From Terriglobia bacterium (GTDB lineage: Bacteria; Acidobacteriota; Terriglobia; Terriglobales; SCQP01), in the NCBI GenBank assembly GCA_021323595.1, contig JAJPKR010000035.1, positions 1-61,810 of the forward strand: DNA of 61,810 nucleotides. The letters run 5' to 3'. The position numbers and the translations under genes were made by a program. The notes under the pieces were generated by a model. It had not been told where the DNA came from. It made no database searches and saw only the letters and a list, made by a program, of their open reading frames with translations. Numbering within the stretch: the first letter of the stretch is position 1; every line of letters starts with the position of its first letter. Positions 3,368 to 17,298 of this stretch are shown here, in pieces.

Positions 3368-4840
3368 TTAAGAGAGCGGCACCGACTGGCCGGCGGCGAT
3401 CCAGAGCGCATCGAACCACCACAGGCCGGCGAGCGCGAGCGCGGCGGCCGCGGCGGCGAGAGCGGCGGCGGGGGCGACGAGCGCCGCCGCGGCCAGCGCC
3501 AGCGGCGCCGCCGTGCCCAGAACGAAGGCGAGCAGCCAGAAGCGGCGGCCGCGGATGAGATTGCGGCGCGCCACACGCTCGGCCGCGCCGCCGCGCGGAC
3601 GCGCCTCGGCCAGCAAGAGCGCGATAGCGGCGGCCAGGGCGGCCACGAACACGACCAGGGCCGGGCGCGGCGCGGCGGGCAGGAATAAACCCGCCAGCAG
3701 CCAAACCGCCGCACCGGCGGCGAAGGCCTGGGCGAGCAGATGCCAGAAGAAGAGACGGCTCAGCCACAGATCGCGTCCCTTGGCCTGGCCGAAAAGGAAG
3801 GCGCTGTAGGCGGCGGCGAAGGCGGCGGCAACGGCCGCGAGCGCAGCGAGGCCGGCGGGGACCGCGCCGCGGGTGACGGCCGACGCGAGCCAGGCGACGG
3901 CCAGCGCGCCGTAGGCGCCGAGAATGTAAGCGCCGAGCACGAGCCAGGAGCGGCGGTTCCCTTTCGTGAGCAGGAACAGGAACCGCTCCGGACGCTTGAG
4001 GTCGGCTACCAGCAGAGCGAGGGTCGCGGCTAGAAAGAGGAGGGCGACGACCGGGGCGACGAAGAGGCGCGCCGGGCCGGCGCCGCCGAGCAAGGCGGCG
4101 ACCAGCAACGCGCCGGCCGCGACGGCTTTGGTCCAAAGATAGAGCGCGATCTTCGCGCCCCAGGGCGCGGGGTGGGCGACGTTGTAGATCTCGCGCGCCG
4201 CCGCGGGCGGAGCGGCGGGCGCGGCGGCAATCGCGCCGCGGCGCTCGGCCCAGGCAAACGCGGCAGGCCGCGCCAGCGACTCGGGCGCCAGCAGGGGCGG
4301 GGCGAGAGCCACGTAACGCAGCTTGGGCCGGGTTTGCTTTTCCGGCTTGCGCACTTCGGTCGGCCGCTCCGCGGCAACGCGGCTGACGGCGCTCGCGGGA
4401 TCGTCGAGGTCGCCGGCCAAGATCGCCTGCGTCGGGCAGACGATGACGCAGGCCGGCTCCAGGCCGCGCTCGATGCGATGAGCGCAGAAGTTGCACTTGG
4501 CGGCGGTGCGGCTGGCGGGATCGAGATAGAGGGCGTCGTAGGGGCAGGCTTGCATGCAAGCCTTGCAACCGACGCAGCGGGCAGAATCGAAATCGACGAT
4601 GCCGTCGGAACGGCGGAAGAGAGCGCGGGTGGGGCAGATGGGGAGGCAGGGAGCGTCGTCGCAGTGGTTACATCGCATCACGCCGAAGTAGCGCTGGGCG
4701 TGCGGGAAGGAGCCTTCTTCAACGACTTTGACCCAAGTGCGAAAGACGCCGACCGGCACCTGGTGCTCTTCCTTGCACGCCACCGTACAGGCGTGGCAGC
4801 CGATACATCGGTCTTGCGCGATGACGAAGCCGTAGCGCAT
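3368..4840 (-). CDS. Fused Fe-S (DmsB/PsrB-like) and NrfD/PsrC-type membrane subunit
   Basis: This 490-residue protein joins two subunits that are normally separate. Residues 1-180 carry four cysteine clusters for four [4Fe-4S] centres, beginning CIGCHACTVAC at residue 12, the electron-transfer subunit of complex iron-sulfur molybdoenzymes. From about residue 230 onward it is strongly hydrophobic, with roughly eight membrane helices of the NrfD/PsrC type that exchange electrons with quinones. It is the first gene of a two-gene operon; the molybdenum subunit follows after 11 nt. A TACTAT hexamer lies 12 nt before the ATG. Its partner lacks a Tat signal, so the Fe-S part may face the cytoplasm. 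Confidence 0.88.
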   Translation of the reverse strand: MRYGFVIAQDRCIGCHACTVACKEEHQVPVGVFRTWVKVVEEGSFPHAQRYFGVMRCNHCDDAPCLPICPTRALFRRSDGIVDFDSARCVGCKACMQACPYDALYLDPASRTAAKCNFCAHRIERGLEPACVIVCPTQAILAGDLDDPASAVSRVAAERPTEVRKPEKQTRPKLRYVALAPPLLAPESLARPAAFAWAERRGAIAAAPAAPPAAAREIYNVAHPAPWGAKIALYLWTKAVAAGALLVAALLGGAGPARLFVAPVVALLFLAATLALLVADLKRPERFLFLLTKGNRRSWLVLGAYILGAYGALAVAWLASAVTRGAVPAGLAALAAVAAAFAAAYSAFLFGQAKGRDLWLSRLFFWHLLAQAFAAGAAVWLLAGLFLPAAPRPALVVFVAALAAAIALLLAEARPRGGAAERVARRNLIRGRRFWLLAFVLGTAAPLALAAAALVAPAAALAAAAAALALAGLWWFDALWIAAGQSVPLS

Positions 4841-7195: not shown

Positions 7196-7364
7196 AAAGC
7201 CCTGGTGTGATGCGAGAGGAATCTTGATGGTTGCGCACGGAGTCGAACCGGCACCGGCGCCGCTTCCCGCGAGCGCGGACTTGCGCGTCCGCTCCCGCCT
7301 CTCTTGGTCGAGAGTGCCGAATCGCGACCGGCGACTCTTGCGTCTCTCTTGAGGATAATGAGGA

Positions 7365-7814
7365 ATGACGTTTGCTGGTGCAAGAGTAATTGCGCTGGAC
7401 GTTGGGGAGCGGCGCATCGGCATCGCCGTCAGCGATGAATTAGGCCTTACGGCCCAGGGGCTCGAGACTCTGGAACGCCGGAACGTGGCGACCGATATGG
7501 CGCGCCTGGGCGCGCTGGCCGAGCAGTATCAGATCGCGAATTGGGTGGTGGGGCTGCCGCTGCGCCTAAGCGGCCGGGAAAGCGGGCAGGCAGAAAAGGT
7601 GCGCGCCTTCGGGCAGCGCTTGGAGCAGGCCTCGCGGCGGCCGGTGGAATTCCTCGATGAACGGCTGACCACCGTGGAAGCCGAGCGGGTGTTGCGCCAG
7701 GCGGAGCAGAGCCGGCAGAAGAGCCGGCGCGCGGTGGACCGCATGGCGGCGGTGATCCTGCTGCAGAGCTATCTGGACCGGCGGCACGGCGCAGGCGGTC
7801 CGGCGGAGCGCTAA
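7365..7814 (+). CDS. ruvX: Putative Holliday junction resolvase / pre-16S rRNA nuclease YqgF
   Basis: This 149-residue RNase H-fold nuclease shows the family signature [16 protein letters not shown] at residues 10-25, the [12 protein letters not shown] block and a C-terminal [14 protein letters not shown] with the last catalytic Asp. E. coli YqgF is essential and processes 16S rRNA 5' ends. The length is typical. Its stop overlaps the thiolase stop on the opposite strand by 4 nt (tail to tail). Confidence 0.93.
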
Positions 7815-8974
7815 ATCTCGACGGCCGCAGCCAGGCCCAGCCCGCCGGAGGCACAAAGCGTGGCCAACCCGAGGCGGCCGCCGCGCTGCCGCAGCGCGTG
7901 CAGCAACGTCACCAGAATGCGCGCGCCGCTGCAGCCGGTGGGATGGCCGAGGGCGATGGCTCCGCCGCGCACGTTGAGCCGCTCGAGATCGAAGGGCATT
8001 TCCCTTTGGCAGGCGAGGACCTGGGCGGCGAAGGCTTCGTTGAGCTCGATCAGGTCGAAATCCGCGAGCGCCAGGCCGAGCTGGGCGAGCAGGCGCTGGG
8101 TGGCGGGGACCGGGCCGAGGCCCATGCGACGCGGATCGACGCCGGCGGCGGCGAAGCCGCGCAGGCGCGCGATCGGGGCGAGGCCATGCGCGGCGGCGAA
8201 CTCGGCACCGGCGACGACAAGGGCGGCGGCGCCATCGGCGATAGCGGAGGCGTTTCCGGCGGTCACCGTGCCATCGGCGGTGAAGACGGGCGGCAGGCGC
8301 GCCAGCTGCGCGAGTTCGCTGGGGCGGGGCGGCTCATCGTCGGCGATGGTTTGGGTGCGGCCGTCAATCGTCATCTCCAGCGGCGCGATTTCGGCGGCGA
8401 AGTCGGCGCGCGCGGCCAAGGCACGGGTTTGCGAGCGCAGCGCGAAGGCGTCTTGCTCGGCGCGCGGGATCTGATATTCGCGCGCCAGCAGGTCGGCGGT
8501 TTCGCCCATGACCATCTCCGATAGCGGGCAGAGATAGCCGTCGCGAAGCATCGCGTCCACGAGCGGTTTATGGCCCATGCGCGCGCCCCAGCGCACGTCC
8601 TCGAGGAGATAGGGGATGCGGCTCATCGCCTCGACGCCGCCGGCGAGCACGCATTGCTGGCGGCCCAGGGCGATTTCCTGCCAAGCCAGCTCGACGGCCT
8701 TGAGGCCCGAGGCGCAGGCCTGGTTGACGGTGAAGGCGGGCACGGCGTCGGGCACGCCGGCGCGGCGGCCGACCTGGCGCGCGGGATTGGGACCGCCGCC
8801 GGCCTGGCGGGCATTGCCGAAGATCGTGGCGCCGACGGCGGCGGCGGGCACGCCTGCGCGCGCGAGCGCGGCGGCGGCGGCGTGGCCGCCCAACTGTGCG
8901 GCGGTACAGGTCCGCAAACGTCCGCCGAAGCGGCCCATCGGCGTGCGCACGGCGCTCAAGATGACAACATCCAT
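7811..8974 (-). CDS. Acetyl-CoA acetyltransferase (thiolase)
   Basis: The 387-residue product is a complete thiolase. The nucleophilic Cys lies in [12 protein letters not shown] near residue 86; the NEAFA block follows, then the catalytic His in [11 protein letters not shown], then a C-terminal LCASGGLG with the second catalytic Cys. Such enzymes either condense two acetyl-CoA or cleave 3-ketoacyl-CoA; the direction here is unknown. ATG 8974 is used because [14 protein letters not shown] is the canonical N-terminus. The gene is divergent from the 9026 gene. No beta-oxidation partners are adjacent, so a general acetoacetyl-CoA role is as likely as fatty-acid degradation. Confidence 0.92.
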
Positions 8975-9010
8975 GGCCTTGGGGACGGCGCGAAGGGGCC
9001 CGATTTCCAG

Positions 9011-9016
9011 TATATT
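9011..9016 (+). promoter_or_regulatory. TATATT -10-like hexamer before GTG 9026
   Basis: The hexamer ends 9 nt before the GTG start, the same spacing as at dgt and the GH57 gene. No Shine-Dalgarno sequence lies between, consistent with a leaderless transcript. Confidence 0.5.
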
Positions 9017-9025
9017 GGCTGGGCC

Positions 9026-9610
9026 GTGACACCCGACGAAATGCTGGACCAACTGGAGGACGCCATGCGCCAGTTGGCGGTGCAGTACGAGGCCTATTTT
9101 GCCGGCGGCCACAAGCGGCCCTCGGCCGACCTCACCTGGCGGGTGGACAACTACTTCCGGATGCTGAACGAGAGCACGACGCTGAAGTACGCGCAGCGAT
9201 TCCGGTTGAACCAACTGCAACAGCGCCATGCGGTGGTGACCCGCGTTTGGCGGCGCAAGCTGGACATCAAAGAGAGCGGGTGGCGGCGCGCCACGGACCG
9301 GCTGCTGAGCGTGAGCGGCGCGCATGAATCCACCGAGGCGGTGCCGCGGACGGCGGAGTGCCACATCGACCTGGGCCACGGCACGGAAGTGGACGACGCC
9401 AACATCGAGCGCCTCTACGCCGCTTACTTGCGCGCACGCGAACGCGCCAGCGACGCCGTGCCGGCCGGAACGCTCGAACGCTTCCGGTCGCTGATCGAGA
9501 AGAAAGCGGCGGAGATTCGCACCCAGCACAACGACGCCCACGTCGCCGCCACGGTCACGCTCGAAGACGGCCGGGTCAAATTGCGGCTGGAGGCCAAAGA
9601 GGAACGGTAG
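9026..9610 (+). CDS. Conserved hypothetical protein, possibly MXAN_5187 C-terminal-like
   Basis: The 194-residue product is soluble, helical and charged. It contains [20 protein letters not shown] followed by a segment rich in aromatic and basic residues ([23 protein letters not shown]) and ends in a lysine/glutamate-rich region. The middle part resembles, from memory, the MXAN_5187 C-terminal domain of myxobacterial proteins; this needs a profile search. GTG 9026 is preferred because TATATT lies 9 nt upstream; an in-frame ATG at 9041 is the alternative. It is followed by purH after 98 nt. Confidence 0.6.
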
Positions 9611-9708
9611 GCGCGGCAGGCAGCCGGGGCGACCGGTCTGCCCGGCCGGCGGCTCTCCTGGGGCACGAGACCGGCGAGCGGCGGGTGTGGCAAACTTTGG
9701 CTTTCCCC

Positions 9709-11295
9709 ATGAGCCAATCCTCCGTCGCTTCCCGTCCGCGTCTGGCGCTGCTTTCGGTTTCCGATAAGACCGGTCTAGCCGAATTTGCGCGCCGCTTGGC
9801 GCGGGCCGGCTTCGAACTCGTCTCCACCGGCGGCACGGCGCGCACGCTGCGGGAAGCGGGCTTGCCGGTGCGCGACGTGGCCGAGCTGACCGGTTTTCCC
9901 GAAATGCTCGACGGGCGCGTGAAGACGCTGCATCCGCGCGTGCACGGAGGGCTCCTCGCCCGACGGGATCAAGCCGAGCATATGCGGCAATTGGCGGAAC
10001 AGGAGATCGCGCCGATCGACTTGGTGGTCGTGAACCTGTATCCGTTTGCGGCAACGGCGGCGCGCGCCGGCGTATCGTTGGCGGAATTGATCGAGAACAT
10101 CGATATCGGCGGACCCTCGATGATCCGCTCGGCCGCCAAGAATTTCTCCGCCGTGACCGTGGTCACCGCGCCGGAAGACTATGAACGGGTGGCGGCGGAG
10201 ATCGAACGGCACGGCGAGACGTCGGCGGCGACGCGCTGGGAGCTGGCGCAGAAGGCCTTCGCGCGCACCGCGGACTACGACGCCACGATCGCGGCGACGC
10301 TCGCGCGCGTCGAAGGCGGCGACGGCAGCCGGACGCTGCCGGCCACGGCGGGCGGGATGCCGATGGCGCTTTCGATTCACGCGGCGAAGACGCACGACCT
10401 GCGCTACGGCGAAAACCCGCATCAACGGGCGGCGCTTTACCGCGATCCGGCCGCGCGCGGCGGCATCGCCTGGGCCGAATGCCTGCAAGGCAAGGAATTG
10501 TCATTCAACAACCTCGTTGACCTCGAGGCGGCCTGGCTGCTGGCGCAAGAGTTCGAGGAGCCGGCGGCGGCGATCATCAAGCACACCAATCCCGCCGGCT
10601 GCGCCACCGGCGTGGGCTTGGCCGAGGCGTACGAAAAGGCGCTGGCGTGCGATCCGGTTTCGGCTTTCGGCGGCGTGATCGGAGTCAACCGGGCGCTGGA
10701 CGGCGAGGCGGCCGGCAAAATGGCGGCGCTGTTCGTCGAGTGCATCGCAGCGCCGGAGTTCACCGCGGAAGCGCGGTCGGTGCTGGCCGCGAAGAAGAAT
10801 CTCCGCTTGGTGCGGGTGGCGCCGCTCGGCGGCGCTCCGGAATTGGCCTTGCGCTCGATCTCCGGCGGCTGGCTGGCGCAGGATCCCGACACGCATCGGC
10901 TGCGCGCCGAAGATCTAAAGGTCGTGACGCGGCGAGCGCCGAGCGAGGAAGAGCGGCAAGCGCTGATGTTCGCCTGGAAGGTCGTCAAGCACGTCAAGAG
11001 CAACGCCATCGTCTTCGTCAAGCCCGGGCAGACCGTTGCCGTCGGCGCGGGCCAGATGAGCCGCGTGGATTCGGTGAAGATCGCGGCGATGAAGGCGCAA
11101 CTGCCCCTGGCGGGTTCGGCGGTGGGCAGCGACGCGTTCTTCCCGTTTCCGGATGGCGTCGAGGAAGCGGCACGGCACGGCGCGACGGCGGTGATTCAGC
11201 CGGGTGGCTCCGTGCGCGACGCCGAGGTGATCGCGGCCTGCGATCGCTTGGGCTTGGCGATGGTGTTTACCGGCATCCGCCATTTTCGGCACTGA
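9709..11295 (+). CDS. purH: Bifunctional AICAR transformylase / IMP cyclohydrolase
   Basis: This 528-residue enzyme does the last two steps of purine synthesis. The N-terminal MGS-like IMP cyclohydrolase domain carries [18 protein letters not shown] and the substrate loop [17 protein letters not shown]. The C-terminal transformylase domain carries [13 protein letters not shown] and [12 protein letters not shown] with the catalytic Lys-His pair. The length is typical. The last codons and the stop lie inside a four-unit 15-bp tandem repeat. Confidence 0.97.
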
Positions 11296-11361: not shown

Positions 11362-11664
11362 CTAGACTGAACCGGCGCGGGCGGGCGCGGCGGCGACAGC
11401 CGCTTGCCGCTTGCGCGCGATGAACGCGGTCAGACGGCCCAAGCTACCGAAATTCGCGGGGGTAATTTCGAGATCGTCGATCGTCAGCGCGAAGCGCTCT
11501 TCGATGAAGCTGACGAGATCGAGGACGTTGCCCGAATCGAGCACGGATTCAAACAGCGCCTGATGAGCCGCCAGGGCGGCGGGCGCGGTTCCCGGCGCCA
11601 ACTCGGTGGCGATGAAGTTCGCCAGAATCCGCTCAGTTTGCTCAGAGCCCAACGGGGGACGCAC
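11362..11664 (-). CDS. Acyl/peptidyl carrier protein
   Basis: The 100-residue product is a stand-alone carrier protein. The phosphopantetheine site is Ser44 in VLDSGNVLDLVSFIEERF, and helix III shows the usual ITPANF segment. The residue after the serine is Gly where most carriers have Leu, Ile or Phe. GTG 11664 is my preferred start; the frame stays open to ATG 11754, but that extension is Ala/Pro-rich with codons unlike the rest. It sits divergently next to an acyl-CoA dehydrogenase-like gene and an adenylation gene, as in pyrrolyl carrier systems (PltL/RedO type). No phosphopantetheinyl transferase is in the window. Confidence 0.8.
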   Translation of the reverse strand: MRPPLGSEQTERILANFIATELAPGTAPAALAAHQALFESVLDSGNVLDLVSFIEERFALTIDDLEITPANFGSLGRLTAFIARKRQAAVAAAPARAGSV

Positions 11665-11789
11665 CTTTTCGTTGGAAGACCATAAAAGGAAAGAGGATGT
11701 ATTGCGCGACCGAAGCAAGGCAGGCGGCGGCGCCCGCGCCGGCGCGGCAACCATGATCTCCAGGTCCGGCTCTAACCGCCGAGAACAGG

Positions 11790-12968
11790 ATGGCGCACGG
11801 TTGGAGCGAAGAACAGGAGCGGGGATTCGCGGCCGCGGCGGAGTTTGCGCGCGTTGAGATCAACCCCACTTTAGGCGCACGCCTCGAGAACGGCACGCTT
11901 CCGCGTGAGCTGTGGCGGCGCTGCGGCGAGTTCGGCTGGTTCGGACAGATCCTGCCGGCTGAGGCCGGCGGCGTCGGCAATGACGTGCTGACGGCGGTGC
12001 GGGCCTGGCAAGGACTGGGCTACGGCTGCCTCGATGCCGGCATGCTCATGGCGCTGGGAACGCACGCGTGGTGCGTGACGCTACCGATCTTTCGCTTCGG
12101 CAACCCGCAGCAACGAACGCGCTTTTTGGGGCCGCTGGTGCGCGGCGAGGCGATCGGCGCCATCGCCATTTCCGAGAGCGAGCACGGATCGGATGCGCGG
12201 GAATTCACGACCCGGGCGCCGGCGCGCGGCGCCGGGTTCGTGCTGCACGGCACGAAGACGTTCGTGACCAATGCGCCCGCCGCCGATCTGTTCTTGGTCT
12301 TTGCAACCACGCGTCCGGGCGGCGGCTATTTCGGCGCCTCCGCCTTTGTCGTCGAGCGCGGCAGCGCGGGGGTGCGGGTCGGGCCGCCGCTCGCGAAAAT
12401 GGGCCTGAAGACCAGCCCGATGGCGGAGGTCGCCTTCGACGAGGTAGCACTCGGGCCGGAGCATTGTTTGGGCGAGCCGGGCGCAGGCCAGGCGCTGATG
12501 CGCGCCGCGCTGGAGTGGGAGCGCGGCTGCCTGCTAGCACCTGCCGTCGGCGTCATGGAACGACTGCTGGCGGCCACGGCCTCGCATTGCGTCGCCCGGC
12601 GGCAATTTGGGCGGCCGATCATCGAGTTCGAGGCGGTAGGCCACCAATTGGCGGAGATGAAGCTGCGCTTGGAGCGCGCACGGCTGTTTCTCGAAGACTT
12701 CGCGCGGCGCAAGGACGCCGGCGCCAAAGCCGACGTCGAGGCGGCGATGGCCAAGCTCGAGATCAGCAAGAGCTGGAATCAATGCGCGGCCACGGCGCTG
12801 CACCTCCACGGCGCTTACGGCTATTGCGCCGATTTGGAATTCGAGCGCACGTGGCGGGATGCAGTCGCCAGCCGGATTTATTCGGGCACGTCGGAAATGC
12901 AACGCAACGCGATTGCGGAAAGCCTGCTGGCCGAAGGGCGCGTGCGCGCGTCGCGGGCCCACCCATGA
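11790..12968 (+). CDS. Acyl-CoA dehydrogenase-like flavoprotein (possible prolyl-carrier oxidase)
   Basis: This 392-residue protein has the full acyl-CoA dehydrogenase fold, with FAD-contact motifs AIAISESEHGSDA (about 125-137) and FVTNAPAAD (158-166) and the C-terminal FERTWRDA. The usual catalytic Glu in the IYEGT motif is replaced by Ser365 (IYSGTSEMQR). Glu244 in EWERG matches the alternative base used in isovaleryl-CoA dehydrogenase-type enzymes. Its ATGA overlap with the adenylation gene and the nearby carrier protein suggest it oxidises a carrier-bound acyl or prolyl group and not a CoA ester. PltE and RedW are the known analogues. That role is inferred from context. Confidence 0.8.
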   Translation: MAHGWSEEQERGFAAAAEFARVEINPTLGARLENGTLPRELWRRCGEFGWFGQILPAEAGGVGNDVLTAVRAWQGLGYGCLDAGMLMALGTHAWCVTLPIFRFGNPQQRTRFLGPLVRGEAIGAIAISESEHGSDAREFTTRAPARGAGFVLHGTKTFVTNAPAADLFLVFATTRPGGGYFGASAFVVERGSAGVRVGPPLAKMGLKTSPMAEVAFDEVALGPEHCLGEPGAGQALMRAALEWERGCLLAPAVGVMERLLAATASHCVARRQFGRPIIEFEAVGHQLAEMKLRLERARLFLEDFARRKDAGAKADVEAAMAKLEISKSWNQCAATALHLHGAYGYCADLEFERTWRDAVASRIYSGTSEMQRNAIAESLLAEGRVRASRAHP

Positions 12969-14527
12969 GACCTTGGCTGCTGACCCAAGCCGTCGCCGGC
13001 ACGGTGGCGCGCCGGCCGGAGGCCCCGGCGCTGCGCGACGGCAAAGTCGAATTGAGCTACGGCGCGCTTTGGCAGGAGAGCGGGCGGCTCGCCGCCGGCT
13101 TGCAAGCGCTCGGCCTCGGCCCCGGCGAGCGCGCCGGGATCTGCTTGAAAAAGTCGGCCGCCGCCGGCATCGCCATTCTGGCCGTGCTGCGCGCGGGAGG
13201 AGCGTACGTGCCGCTCGACCCCGTCGCTCCCCCGGCGCGCTTGGCGGCGCTGATCCGGGACTGCGGCCTGCGCGTCGTGATCGCCGGCGACGATCAGCCC
13301 GGCGTCGAGGAACTGAGGCGAGCAGCCGCGGAGTCGCCGGTGCGGCATTGGGTGACGGCGACGGGCGCCGCACCCGGGTGGCGAGGAGTCGAGCTGGGGA
13401 TTGAGGAACCGGCGCCGCGCCGCCGCGTCGGCGGCGATCTCGCCTACGTGCTGTATACCTCCGGCTCGACCGGGCAGCCGAAAGGGGTGATGCACTGCCA
13501 TCGCCATGCGCTGAATTTCATCGAGTGGGCGGCCGAAGAAACGGCGCTGGGCGAGCAGGATCGCGTCGGAGGCTTCGCGCCGCTGCACTTCGATCTTTCG
13601 ATCTTCGACCTGTTCGCGAGCTGGAGCCGGGGTGCGTGCTTGTGCATGCTCGATGCCGTCACCGCGCGCTTTCCCGCCGCCATGGCGGCCTGGCTCGATC
13701 AAGAGCGCATCTCGGTGCTGTACTGCGTGCCGTCGGCGCTGGTGCGCCTGCTGCCCCGCTGCGATCCCGAGCGCGGCGGCGCGAATTTGCGCAGCCTGCG
13801 CGCGGTGATTTTTGCCGGCGAGGTCTTCCCGGTCGCCCCGCTGCGCGCATGGGTGGCGCGCTTGCCGCAAACGGCGTTTTACAACTGGTACGGGCCGACC
13901 GAGACGAATGTGTGCACGGCCTATCGCGTGCCGAGCGCGCCTGAGTTGATTCCCGATCCACTGCCGATCGGAACGGCGTGCCCCAATTTCGAGCTTCGCG
14001 CCGGCGATGAGAGCGGGCAGCCGAGTCCGGATGGCGCCGGGTATTTGTGGGCACGAGGCGAGATCTTTCTCGGCTACTGGGGTGATCGGCAGCGGACGGC
14101 GCAGGTCTGCCGGCCGTTCGCGGGCGCTGACGGCTTGGAGGCGGTTTGGTACAACACCGGCGATCTGGCGCGGCTGGACGGTGACGGCGTCTGGCACTTC
14201 GAGGGGCGGCGCGACGATCTGGTGAAAGTGCGCGGGTATCGCATCTCGCTGCTCGAGATCCAGCAGACGCTTTTGCGCGCGCCGGCGGTGGCGGCGGCGG
14301 CGGTTTTGCTCATCGGGGAGCCGGGCGGGGAGGCGCTGCACGCTTATGTCGCGCTGCAGGCGGGGCAGACGGCGAGCGCGGCGGAGGTGAGGAACTGGTG
14401 CAGCCAGACGCTGCCGCGCTACATGGTGCCGGAGGTGCACGTCGTGGCGCAGCTTCCGGAAACGGCCACGGGCAAAGTGGACCGCGTCAAGCTGGCGGAA
14501 CTGGCGCGGCAGGGGGCGGCGGCATGA
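12965..14527 (+). CDS. Stand-alone amino-acid adenylation enzyme, predicted L-proline-like specificity
   Basis: This 520-residue ANL enzyme lacks condensation and carrier domains. Core motifs are complete: A3 YTSGSTGQPKG (164-174), A5 NWYGPTETN (307-315), A7 YNTGDL, A8 RGYRI and A10 TGKVDR. Aligning to GrsA without gaps in the pocket gives Asp210, Leu211, Phe214, Tyr253, Ile282, Ala284, Trp308, Val316, Cys317 and the A10 Lys, i.e. DLFYIAWVCK. From memory the prolyl-AMP ligases of pyrrole pathways read DLLYLALVCK. I therefore infer it loads proline, or a close analogue, onto the nearby carrier protein. It is coupled by ATGA overlaps to both neighbours. Confidence 0.82.
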   Translation: MRPWLLTQAVAGTVARRPEAPALRDGKVELSYGALWQESGRLAAGLQALGLGPGERAGICLKKSAAAGIAILAVLRAGGAYVPLDPVAPPARLAALIRDCGLRVVIAGDDQPGVEELRRAAAESPVRHWVTATGAAPGWRGVELGIEEPAPRRRVGGDLAYVLYTSGSTGQPKGVMHCHRHALNFIEWAAEETALGEQDRVGGFAPLHFDLSIFDLFASWSRGACLCMLDAVTARFPAAMAAWLDQERISVLYCVPSALVRLLPRCDPERGGANLRSLRAVIFAGEVFPVAPLRAWVARLPQTAFYNWYGPTETNVCTAYRVPSAPELIPDPLPIGTACPNFELRAGDESGQPSPDGAGYLWARGEIFLGYWGDRQRTAQVCRPFAGADGLEAVWYNTGDLARLDGDGVWHFEGRRDDLVKVRGYRISLLEIQQTLLRAPAVAAAAVLLIGEPGGEALHAYVALQAGQTASAAEVRNWCSQTLPRYMVPEVHVVAQLPETATGKVDRVKLAELARQGAAA

Positions 14528-15243
14528 CCGCGGCGCGCGCGGCCATCCCGTGCGGGGCGCCCGCGCGGGCGCAGCCGGAGCCTTGGCATCCGCCGGCACT
14601 GCTCGGCAGCACGGCGTACCGGCGCATCGGCCGGGCGCTCGATCGCAGCGGTCTGAAGCGCTGGCTGGAGTTTCATGTCCACGTCTATATCGCCGCCGAG
14701 CGGGAGCGCTTGCGCGCGCCGGCGCGGCCGCCGCGCGGCCTGCGGTTGGCGCAAGAGACGGCGGCGGCGCTGCCGGCCTTGGCCGCGCTGCGTCCGGAGC
14801 CGATCGAAGCGCTCCGCGAGCGTTTCGAAGCGGGCCACTGGTGTTTCGCGGCATGGCAAGGGCAACGTTGCGTCGCCTACCTGTGGGCGGTGGCCGGGCC
14901 GGCGGATCTGCCTTCCCTGCTCGGCTGCATTTGGCGCATCCCAGCAAGCTGGGTGTGGATTTACGACCTCTACACCGTACCGGGATTGATCGGCGCTTTC
15001 GGCCACCTCAACCAAGCGCTATGGCGGGCGATGGGCGGCGAGTGGCGCTCCATCGCGGGGCAGGTGGAGTGCGACAACCGCGCTTCGCGCGCCGCCCATG
15101 CCTCGCTCGGATTCGCCGAACTGGGCGCGATCTGGAGCTGGCGCCTCGGCCCCTGGCGATGGCATTGCATCCAGGACCATCGCCGCCACCGCAGGCGCTG
15201 GCGCTGGGGAACGCCCGCGATCGCGCCGGACGAATGGACATGA
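14524..15243 (+). CDS. GNAT-like acyltransferase
   Basis: The 239-residue product ends in a GNAT-like fold: CFAAWQGQRCVAYLWAV, a hydrophobic strand VWIYDLYTVP, and a QVECDNRASRAAHASLGF segment typical of the acceptor and acyl-donor region. The ATG at 14524 overlaps the stop of the adenylation gene (ATGA), which fixes the start. In this context it could move the carrier-bound acyl group onto an amine; that is a guess from position. It could equally acylate an unrelated small molecule using CoA donors. Confidence 0.65.
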   Translation: MTAARAAIPCGAPARAQPEPWHPPALLGSTAYRRIGRALDRSGLKRWLEFHVHVYIAAERERLRAPARPPRGLRLAQETAAALPALAALRPEPIEALRERFEAGHWCFAAWQGQRCVAYLWAVAGPADLPSLLGCIWRIPASWVWIYDLYTVPGLIGAFGHLNQALWRAMGGEWRSIAGQVECDNRASRAAHASLGFAELGAIWSWRLGPWRWHCIQDHRRHRRRWRWGTPAIAPDEWT

Positions 15244-16370
15244 GCGCGACCCACGCCAATCTCTCACCGGCGGAGGCGAACGCACGCCAGCGCGCGCCGG
15301 TGGCCTTGCGCTGCGCCTGCGGACGCGCCCTGCCGCTGCGCCGCAACGAGCTGCTCTGCGTCTGCGGCCGCAATTTGGGGGCGCGGCAGGATGGGCTGTG
15401 GCGCATCGGCCAGCCCGCTCCCTATTGGGGCGAGGTGGAAGAGGAGCGGATGGCCGACCTGCTGAGCGTCTGCCGGCGGCGGAACTGGCGGTCCGCGGCA
15501 AAGAAAGTGCTGCCGGAACTGGCGGGGTATTTGCTCGACGCGCGTCGCGCCGCGTTCATCGAAGTGCTGCCCTTACCGCCGGGACGGCGGCTGCTGGAGA
15601 TCGGCGCCGGCATGGGCGCGATCTCGGCCGAGCTGGCGCGCGACTATGACGTGGTGGCAATGGAAGGGGTGCGCGAAAGGGCCGAGTTCCTGGCGCTGCG
15701 CGCCGCCCAGGATGGCCTGGAGCGGCTGCAGGTGATTTGCGCGGACTGGCACTTGATCCGCTTCGCCCCCAGTCAATTCGACGGCATCATCATGAACGGC
15801 GTGCTGGAATGGGTCGGACTCGGCGATCGCGCCGGATCGCCGCGCGCGGCGCAGCTGCGCTTCCTGCGCCGGGCGCGGGAGTGGCTGGCGCCGGACGGGG
15901 TGATCTATCTCGCCATCGAGAACCGCTTCGGCCTGCCGGTGTTGCGCGGATCGCGGGATCACAGCGGCTTGCCGTTCACGAGCCTGCTGCCGCGCTGGGC
16001 GGCGCGGCTGGCCTGCGCGTTTTGGGCGCCGTACCGATCCGGCGCCAACCGCGGCTACCGCACCTATACCTATTCCTACGGCGGCTACCGGCGATTGCTG
16101 GAGCAAGCCGAGCTCAAGATCGAGCAGAGCTACGTCTGCCCGCTCGGTTACAACCTGCCCGTCGGCCTCATGCCGCTGCATCCGGCGGCACTGCGCTTCC
16201 AAAAGGCGCGCCGGGGCATGGCAAGAGGGATTTTGTGGCGGGCGGCGCGGCGGCGGCTGAACTGGGTTTGGCTGTATCGCGCGCTGGGCGGAGACTTCGC
16301 GTTCGTGCTGAGCGCGGCATCACCCGCCAGCGTGGTGGCATTGCCCAGCGGCGAGCGCAACGATGCATGA
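15240..16370 (+). CDS. SAM-dependent methyltransferase with N-terminal cysteine motif
   Basis: The 376-residue protein has a class I methyltransferase core: motif I LLEIGAGMGAISAELA near residue 115, the acidic end of beta-2 (VVAMEG), an ICADWH segment and IIMNGVLEW. Before it lies a Cys set (CACGRALPLRRNELLCVCG) that could bind zinc. The C-terminal part is aromatic-rich (GYRTYTYSYGGYRRLL). ATG 15240 gives the ATGA overlap with the upstream stop; ATG 15234 is the alternative. It overlaps the next gene by 8 nt, so the five plus-strand genes of this cluster form one translationally coupled unit. Confidence 0.78.
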   Translation: MSATHANLSPAEANARQRAPVALRCACGRALPLRRNELLCVCGRNLGARQDGLWRIGQPAPYWGEVEEERMADLLSVCRRRNWRSAAKKVLPELAGYLLDARRAAFIEVLPLPPGRRLLEIGAGMGAISAELARDYDVVAMEGVRERAEFLALRAAQDGLERLQVICADWHLIRFAPSQFDGIIMNGVLEWVGLGDRAGSPRAAQLRFLRRAREWLAPDGVIYLAIENRFGLPVLRGSRDHSGLPFTSLLPRWAARLACAFWAPYRSGANRGYRTYTYSYGGYRRLLEQAELKIEQSYVCPLGYNLPVGLMPLHPAALRFQKARRGMARGILWRAARRRLNWVWLYRALGGDFAFVLSAASPASVVALPSGERNDA

Positions 16371-17298
16371 GCTGGTTTGGCGCCTCTGGAGCCGCGAAAC
16401 GGGCAAAAAGGCGCTGGCGCCGCTGCCCGCCGATCCCGGCCAGGTCACGCTGGCGTGCTTCGGCGCGGGCGGCCGCGATCCGGTGTGGATCGCGAAGATC
16501 GCGCGCGATGCCGCCGGGCGGCAGCGGCTGCGCCAGGAACGCGCCGCCTTGGCACAGCTCGCGCCCTGGCGGACGCAATTGCTTGCGCCCGGCGAACTGG
16601 ATTGGCAGGAGACCGAAGCCGATGCCTGCCTCATCGAATCCGGCCTCGGCGGGCGCCTGCGGTATTGGCGGACGCGGCGGGACGGCCTCCGGGGACACGG
16701 CGGCGAATTGGCCGAATCCGTGGTGGCCTGGATCATCAAGTTCCAAAGCCTAGTGGCGCCGCCGCGCGCCGTGAGCGTCCGCGAGCTCGCGGCGGAGTAC
16801 GCGGCGGCGTTGCGCTCCAGCCCAGGAAAGTGGCCGCCGCCGGATTGGGCGGATGCCTTGGAAGATGCGAGCGCCGGCAGCGAACCCCGGCCGGCGGCGC
16901 CGATTCACGGCGATCTGTGGTTCGGCAATTGCCTATGGCGCGAAGGGTTGAGCGGCATCACCGACTGGTGCGGATTCGACGCCGGTAGCCCGCTGGACGA
17001 TCTGCTCTCGTTCCTGATCAAGTGCCCCGCGCGGCCGCGCGAACGGCATTCGCTGTTTCGCGCGTACTTTTTCGAAGACTGCGCGCTGATGCGGCAGACT
17101 CGCGCCTGGGCGGCGCGGCTGGCGCCGCCGCCAGCCTGGCGGCTGTGCTTCTATTTGTTCCTGGCGCGCCGGCTGCGCTGGGAAGCCGGATTGGCGAATC
17201 AGCCGCGCAGCGAACAGGAGCGAGCCGACGCGCGCGCCGAATGGACCCCGACTCTGGCCTGGCTGCGGGAGCGCCGCTTCCCGGCTCCATGGAGTTGA
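16363..17298 (+). CDS. Aminoglycoside phosphotransferase-fold kinase
   Basis: This 311-residue protein has the APH/choline-kinase signature: IHGDLWFGNCLW holds the catalytic Asp and the metal-binding Asn, and ITDWCGFDAGSPLDDL the second metal-binding Asp. The N-terminal lobe shows a WIAKIARD strand with a likely ATP-binding Lys. It is the last gene of the coupled cluster (8-nt overlap). It may phosphorylate an intermediate or inactivate the product as self-protection; sequence does not decide between these. Confidence 0.75.
   Translation: MHELVWRLWSRETGKKALAPLPADPGQVTLACFGAGGRDPVWIAKIARDAAGRQRLRQERAALAQLAPWRTQLLAPGELDWQETEADACLIESGLGGRLRYWRTRRDGLRGHGGELAESVVAWIIKFQSLVAPPRAVSVRELAAEYAAALRSSPGKWPPPDWADALEDASAGSEPRPAAPIHGDLWFGNCLWREGLSGITDWCGFDAGSPLDDLLSFLIKCPARPRERHSLFRAYFFEDCALMRQTRAWAARLAPPPAWRLCFYLFLARRLRWEAGLANQPRSEQERADARAEWTPTLAWLRERRFPAPWS

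Follow-up and report, generated by a model that had tools for sequence, protein, structure and literature searches.

What can be made from carrier-bound proline where no assembly line stands beside the genes? This question is raised by a six-gene set at positions 11362-17298 of contig JAJPKR010000035.1 from a Terriglobia bacterium (assembly GCA_021323595.1), the whole 61,810 nucleotides of which constitute the window analyzed here. Carrier-bound proline-to-pyrrole chemistry is known mainly as the source of starter or side units of polyketides, peptides, prodiginines and aminocoumarins. No polyketide synthase was found adjacent to the window set, as a preliminary description of the locus had also stated, and all six genes claimed there are present: a carrier gene on the minus strand, divergent from the other five (an orientation absent from that description), and a tightly overlapping plus-strand operon starting at 11790. 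Sequence comparison supports the proline-on-carrier core well, and the accompanying tailoring set appears unusual and of glycan type. On balance we consider it probable that the operon converts L-proline into an N-acylated product bearing methyl and phosphate groups, with an amino sugar or other glycoconjugate building block as the likeliest acceptor.

The identity of the starting amino acid is read from the stand-alone adenylation enzyme (12965-14527, plus strand). Over the region of the binding pocket (window positions 13424-14059), its top solved relatives are two L-proline ligases, 6o6e and 7thn, with other adenylation domains ranking below them, and the code residues D210, L211, F214, Y253, I282, A284, W308, V316, C317 and K504 spell DLFYIAWVCK. 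7thn is identical at all nine code positions readable from the alignment, Lys517 lying beyond it. Orthologs in the family of the window genome (hereafter, the family) carry DLFYLALVCK, DLFYLAWVCK or DLFYIAWVCK, the differences being L/I and W/L swaps known from other proline enzymes. In NCBIfam the enzyme passes the cut-off of TIGR01733. For the set, readings as a D-alanine ligase and an ornithine-lipid carrier were dropped, as both score far below the NCBIfam cut-offs. The pocket code is thus that of neither a non-cyclic amino acid nor a fatty acid, and strongly argues, in line with the proline assignment proposed previously, that the enzyme activates L-proline and loads it onto the carrier.

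The next gene of the pathway, at 11790-12968 (plus strand), encodes a flavoprotein of the acyl-CoA dehydrogenase fold. Its best match in the PDB is AnaB (4irn; 2.3e-88, 300 bits), followed at 253 bits by 6cxt, which we take to be Bmp3, in view of how the Bmp complex is described among the references of PMC10849742, although its PDB name is only 'Butyryl-CoA dehydrogenase', PigA (232 bits) and the best generic acyl-CoA dehydrogenase shown (224 bits). The top NCBIfam matches are the RedW (1.4e-100, 336.7 bits) and PigA (2.9e-95, 319.6 bits) models, neither reaching its cut-off (650 and 500, respectively). Glu244 (E244) aligns with the catalytic base of PigA (Ala in 6af6), and YSGT at residues 364-367 replaces the E-G-T of generic enzymes, placing a Ser where the acyl-CoA enzymes have their C-terminal Glu. 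In a 23-row tree one branch (95/52) parts prolyl from generic dehydrogenases; the window enzyme falls on the prolyl side, where it forms a 99/99 clade with four orthologs. Its clade and its catalytic residues together allow us to strongly infer that the flavoprotein oxidizes prolyl-S-carrier, congruent with the role given to it earlier. A search of the genome's contigs with the dehydrogenase returned a single weak, irrelevant locus.

The stand-alone carrier itself spans 11362-11664 on the minus strand with a GTG start, an alternative ATG extending it to 11754. Its match to Pfam PP-binding is weak (E 0.006) and at 17.2 bits falls short of the 20.8-bit cut-off, and NCBIfam carrier models match at 1e-8 to 1e-3. 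The phosphopantetheine Ser lies at about 11533-11535 in the motif LDSGNV; the LDS motif is common to five family orthologs, each divergent from the dehydrogenase gene. Two proteins of the phosphopantetheinyl-transferase family are encoded in the genome.

Three further genes follow the adenylation enzyme. The first (14524-15243, plus strand) encodes a GNAT-superfamily N-acyltransferase, a putative carrier-unloading transferase. No Pfam model matches the window protein alone; the assignment stems from one ortholog that matches Pfam Acetyltransf_1 (5.8e-7) and from a four-member family profile that matches phosphinothricin N-acetyltransferase (PAT, 1yr0; 7e-4). In all relatives the protein is fused to the methyltransferase encoded by the next gene. 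This methyltransferase (15240-16370, plus strand; Pfam Methyltransf_11, 1.4e-9) has a conserved S-adenosylmethionine motif, and the Cys motif at its N-terminus is a zinc ribbon, CxCG-x(n)-CxCG, kept in all four aligned copies. The last gene (16363-17298, plus strand; Pfam APH, 1.8e-6) encodes an APH-fold kinase of small molecules or sugars with an intact HGDxWxGN motif, the HGDLWFGN and DW motifs being invariant in four orthologs. The APH profile reaches fructosamine-3-kinase (3f7w, 2.2e-6) as well as aminoglycoside, viomycin and capreomycin phosphotransferases. The sole PADLOC match, of the methyltransferase (15240-16367) to the mad2 model (2e-20), covers 129 residues of the methyltransferase domain and was read as the generic methyltransferase fold rather than as a sign of a defence gene.

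The neighborhoods of remote relatives hint at where such enzymes are at home (loci and genome assemblies of the comparison set are denoted L and G, respectively). A methyltransferase profile search of the class gave matches in 12 of 299 genomes, and in six of these the zinc-ribbon methyltransferase and a kinase domain make up a single protein, of about 710-760 residues; the kinase is a Pfam APH match in L050 and L054, and in the remaining fusions was read from HG[DS]...N and DW motifs. A 1063-residue form at L053 (8407-11595) carries an extra N-terminal RimK-like ATP-grasp domain. The fusion adjoins a Polysacc_synt-type flippase in L050, L051 and L054, separate methyltransferase and APH genes precede a flippase in L049, with an asparagine synthase near, and a polysaccharide deacetylase lies near the L052 locus. 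For the GNAT, one outside relative (L089) forms a fusion with a polysaccharide deacetylase and has WecG, sugar-transferase, Wzy_C, MurJ and two glycosyltransferase genes around it; around others (L095-L097), as read by eye, are genes for asparagine synthase and nucleotide-sugar dehydrogenase as well as chain-length genes. Two more belong to genomes of another family: L087, beside a carrier and an adenylation enzyme with the code DLYFMCLIAK, and L088, on a contig that also holds a carrier and a ligase. The L087 arrangement (7383-9980), adenylation enzyme, carrier and GNAT relative without a dehydrogenase, possibly follows the same logic for a different amino acid. Because the GNAT and methyltransferase/APH relatives occur mostly in polysaccharide neighborhoods, we read the tailoring genes as glycan-type enzymes coupled to prolyl/pyrrolyl-carrier chemistry. 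They are therefore not the new families they had been taken for: the methyltransferase and kinase correspond to a recurrent zinc-ribbon methyltransferase-kinase.

Whether the six genes stay together in related genomes had been suggested as a check, and the survey of the family shows that they do co-occur. The GNAT is present in six of 14 family genomes, and part or all of the set recurs in the same number: G000, G003, G005 and G011 hold it in full, in G009 it is divided between two contigs (L032, L085), and the sets of G012 (L084) and a second one in G011 (L082) are partial, cut by contig ends. It adjoins purH in three family genomes and RsbW/STAS genes in most. Given this occurrence and these recurrent neighbors, the set is old in the family yet not universal. 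The GNAT and methyltransferase form one reading frame in every relative, and are split into overlapping genes only in the window.

How might these activities combine? In the pathway we favor, the adenylation enzyme would activate L-proline and load the carrier, whereupon the flavoprotein would oxidize prolyl-S-carrier, most likely to pyrrole-2-carboxyl-S-carrier. The GNAT may then take the oxidized acyl group off the carrier and pass it to an amine, a role suggested since the set has neither thioesterase nor condensation domain and since two GNAT relatives have ligase and carrier neighbors. Finally, the zinc-ribbon methyltransferase and APH-fold kinase would methylate and phosphorylate the acceptor or the product; the classes of these two enzymes are clear, whereas the sequence of these two steps and the positions modified are speculative. 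Equally speculative, the acceptor would be no polyketide or peptide chain but an amino sugar or other glycoconjugate building block that core metabolism supplies. An acceptor of this kind appears likeliest because the closest GNAT and methyltransferase-APH relatives outside the family are mostly in polysaccharide loci. A more specific form, which we put forward only tentatively, has the GNAT (or GNAT-methyltransferase) attach a pyrrole or pyrroline group to a surface glycan or glycolipid at one of its amino sugars, with phosphate added by the kinase; pyrrole chemistry would then serve to modify glycans without any polyketide or peptide assembly line.

Several observations weigh against this pathway. 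No glycosyltransferase, flippase or sugar-nucleotide gene lies within the cluster in any copy seen, so that the case for a glycan acceptor is one of family association. Outside the family the GNAT has only distant relatives (E 1e-7 to 1e-20), and two of them (L090, L086) lie in no clear polysaccharide locus. The single-sequence AlphaFold model of the window GNAT has a pLDDT (predicted local distance difference test) of 38.6, and AnaB as the nearest solved dehydrogenase leaves a pyrroline product possible.

Other accounts of the operon must hence be weighed. Closest to the preliminary description, the product may be a free diffusible molecule, a pyrrole-2-carboxamide of a simple amine that is methylated and phosphorylated, the kinase perhaps giving self-protection. 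The compact six-gene set, the lack of glycan genes beside the family copies and the reach of the APH profile to antibiotic phosphotransferases (aminoglycoside, viomycin, capreomycin) are in its favor, but the outside relatives of the GNAT, methyltransferase and APH point to polysaccharide loci and neither a transporter nor a regulator is conserved with the set, making this account doubtful; an N-acyl amino-sugar or glycoconjugate product is at least equally consistent with the added evidence. That carrier-bound proline is never transferred, the GNAT using acyl-CoA and the methyltransferase/APH pair constituting a separate, co-located pathway, we regard as quite improbable. Acyl-CoA is a common donor for GNATs, and methyltransferase-APH genes are found without proline genes in other families; against this stand the gene overlaps, the GNAT-methyltransferase fusion, joint retention in G003, G005, G009 and G011, and the two genomes of another family in which a GNAT relative has a ligase and a carrier nearby.

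Two further alternatives concern the core chemistry. The flavoprotein may halt after a two-electron oxidation, with the GNAT moving 1-pyrroline-5-carboxyl. In its favor, the top solved match, AnaB, ahead of 6cxt and PigA by score, stops at the pyrroline, yielding pyrroline-5-carboxyl-AnaD (PMC3252866). The catalytic Glu and YSGT-type signatures are common to pyrrole-forming and pyrroline-forming enzymes, and the window clade falls outside both AnaB and PigA/6cxt, so that its position in the tree favors neither product. However, the best NCBIfam models are RedW and PigA, and pyrrole is the product of most characterized prolyl-carrier dehydrogenases (PMC10849742). Thus, pyrrole-2-carboxyl-S-carrier is the most likely oxidation product and an arrest at the pyrroline is less so, an unlikely course overall. 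The ligase and carrier could also belong to an ordinary fatty-acid/acyl-CoA pathway or be exosortase-A-associated, as TIGR03098 is second among the NCBIfam matches of the adenylation enzyme. Yet TIGR03098 scores 253 bits against a cut-off of 592, whereas TIGR01733 passes, and the proline code and a dehydrogenase without the C-terminal Glu of acyl-CoA enzymes are signatures that already contradict this highly improbable origin.

The six genes are taken as real rather than chance reading frames because of synteny in relatives and a GC content by codon position that is typical of genes. Coupling by ATGA stop/start overlaps, as described previously, holds for the first three plus-strand junctions, namely dehydrogenase/adenylation enzyme (12965), adenylation enzyme/GNAT (14524) and GNAT/methyltransferase (15240), but not for methyltransferase/APH, which overlap by 8 nucleotides at 16363. 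Upstream lies purH, an open reading frame read by eye and by synteny with the relatives, and downstream a CDF-type cation transporter.

The survey also yielded observations beyond the complete sets. In G011, L031 contains a dispersed repeat of about 112 nucleotides (3658-3769, 7331-7442 and 8512-8623; 72-96% alike) at the ends of and between cluster genes, where it appears to lengthen reading frames in frame; the same assembly holds a further cluster copy that has diverged (L082, G011:C56), either a paralog or a contaminant. In another family, three loci (L033, L034 and L035) have the core genes for carrier, dehydrogenase and adenylation enzyme but none of the tailoring genes. The core trio of L033 and L035, about 40% alike and with a proline code, adjoins larger adenylation-domain genes conserved between both genomes, which are probably clusters of nonribosomal peptide synthetase type using the same starter. 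Rhodobacterial plasmids (L062/L063 in NZ_CP049039.1, L064 in NZ_CP106737.1) carry an independent set of carrier, dehydrogenase, methyltransferase and adenylation genes, with genes for polysaccharide export and neuraminate-type sugars next to it. These sets resembled the window set but were rejected as kin: their methyltransferase does not match that of the window, and their code, DIFFIGSMCK, is not proline-like.

Known systems offer precedents for parts of this arrangement. With PltL/PltE/PltF, PigG/PigA/PigI, RedO/RedW/RedM, ChmI/ChmH/ChmJ and Bmp, the window shares a stand-alone carrier, a like L-proline pocket and a catalytic-Glu dehydrogenase. In contrast to these thiotemplated trios, however, it has no adjacent polyketide synthase, nonribosomal peptide synthetase or halogenase, is coupled to a GNAT, a methyltransferase and a kinase, and has a dehydrogenase below both the RedW and PigA equivalog cut-offs. 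The AnaB/AnaC/AnaD system of the anatoxin starter follows the same three-protein logic, and AnaB is the closest solved dehydrogenase, but the likeness is limited to prolyl-carrier oxidation; with no adjacent polyketide synthases and a distant sequence relation, anatoxin is not expected. A precedent for the proposed coupling is the lincosamide synthetase (CcbC/LmbC and carrier), which joins carrier-bound proline to an amino sugar as an amide, methylation following (PMC4351081). It differs in proceeding without ring oxidation and in condensing by LmbD, E, F and V rather than a GNAT; none of the six window genes was identified as LmbD/E/F/V, though no search was aimed at them. Similarly, the methyltransferase-kinase pair of WbdD, which caps the O9a O-antigen, acts jointly on a glycan end (PMC3482155). 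There, too, a methyltransferase is joined to a kinase of protein-kinase fold in a polysaccharide setting; WbdD is however absent from the PDB matches of the methyltransferase profile, the APH profile and the fused protein. The window proteins differ from it in their zinc ribbon and APH-type kinase. Nor is the window operon part of an O-antigen locus: it and the family copies have purH or RsbW/STAS genes as neighbors, and only the outside-family relatives are in polysaccharide loci.

Aggregated, proline loading and prolyl-carrier oxidation stand as originally read and the genes co-occur in relatives, whereas the novelty of the tailoring families does not hold. The fusion of GNAT and methyltransferase in all relatives and of methyltransferase and kinase elsewhere offers a testable hint of a single substrate for all three tailoring enzymes. 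The operon may couple a pyrrole to an amine, a sugar among others, by a route that to our knowledge is undescribed. A six-gene version without an assembly line, ending in a GNAT-methyltransferase and a kinase, would if true represent a short, easily reconstituted route to pyrrolyl or pyrrolinyl amides of a new class; with an amino sugar as acceptor, it would also tie the decoration of glycans to the chemistry of secondary metabolites.

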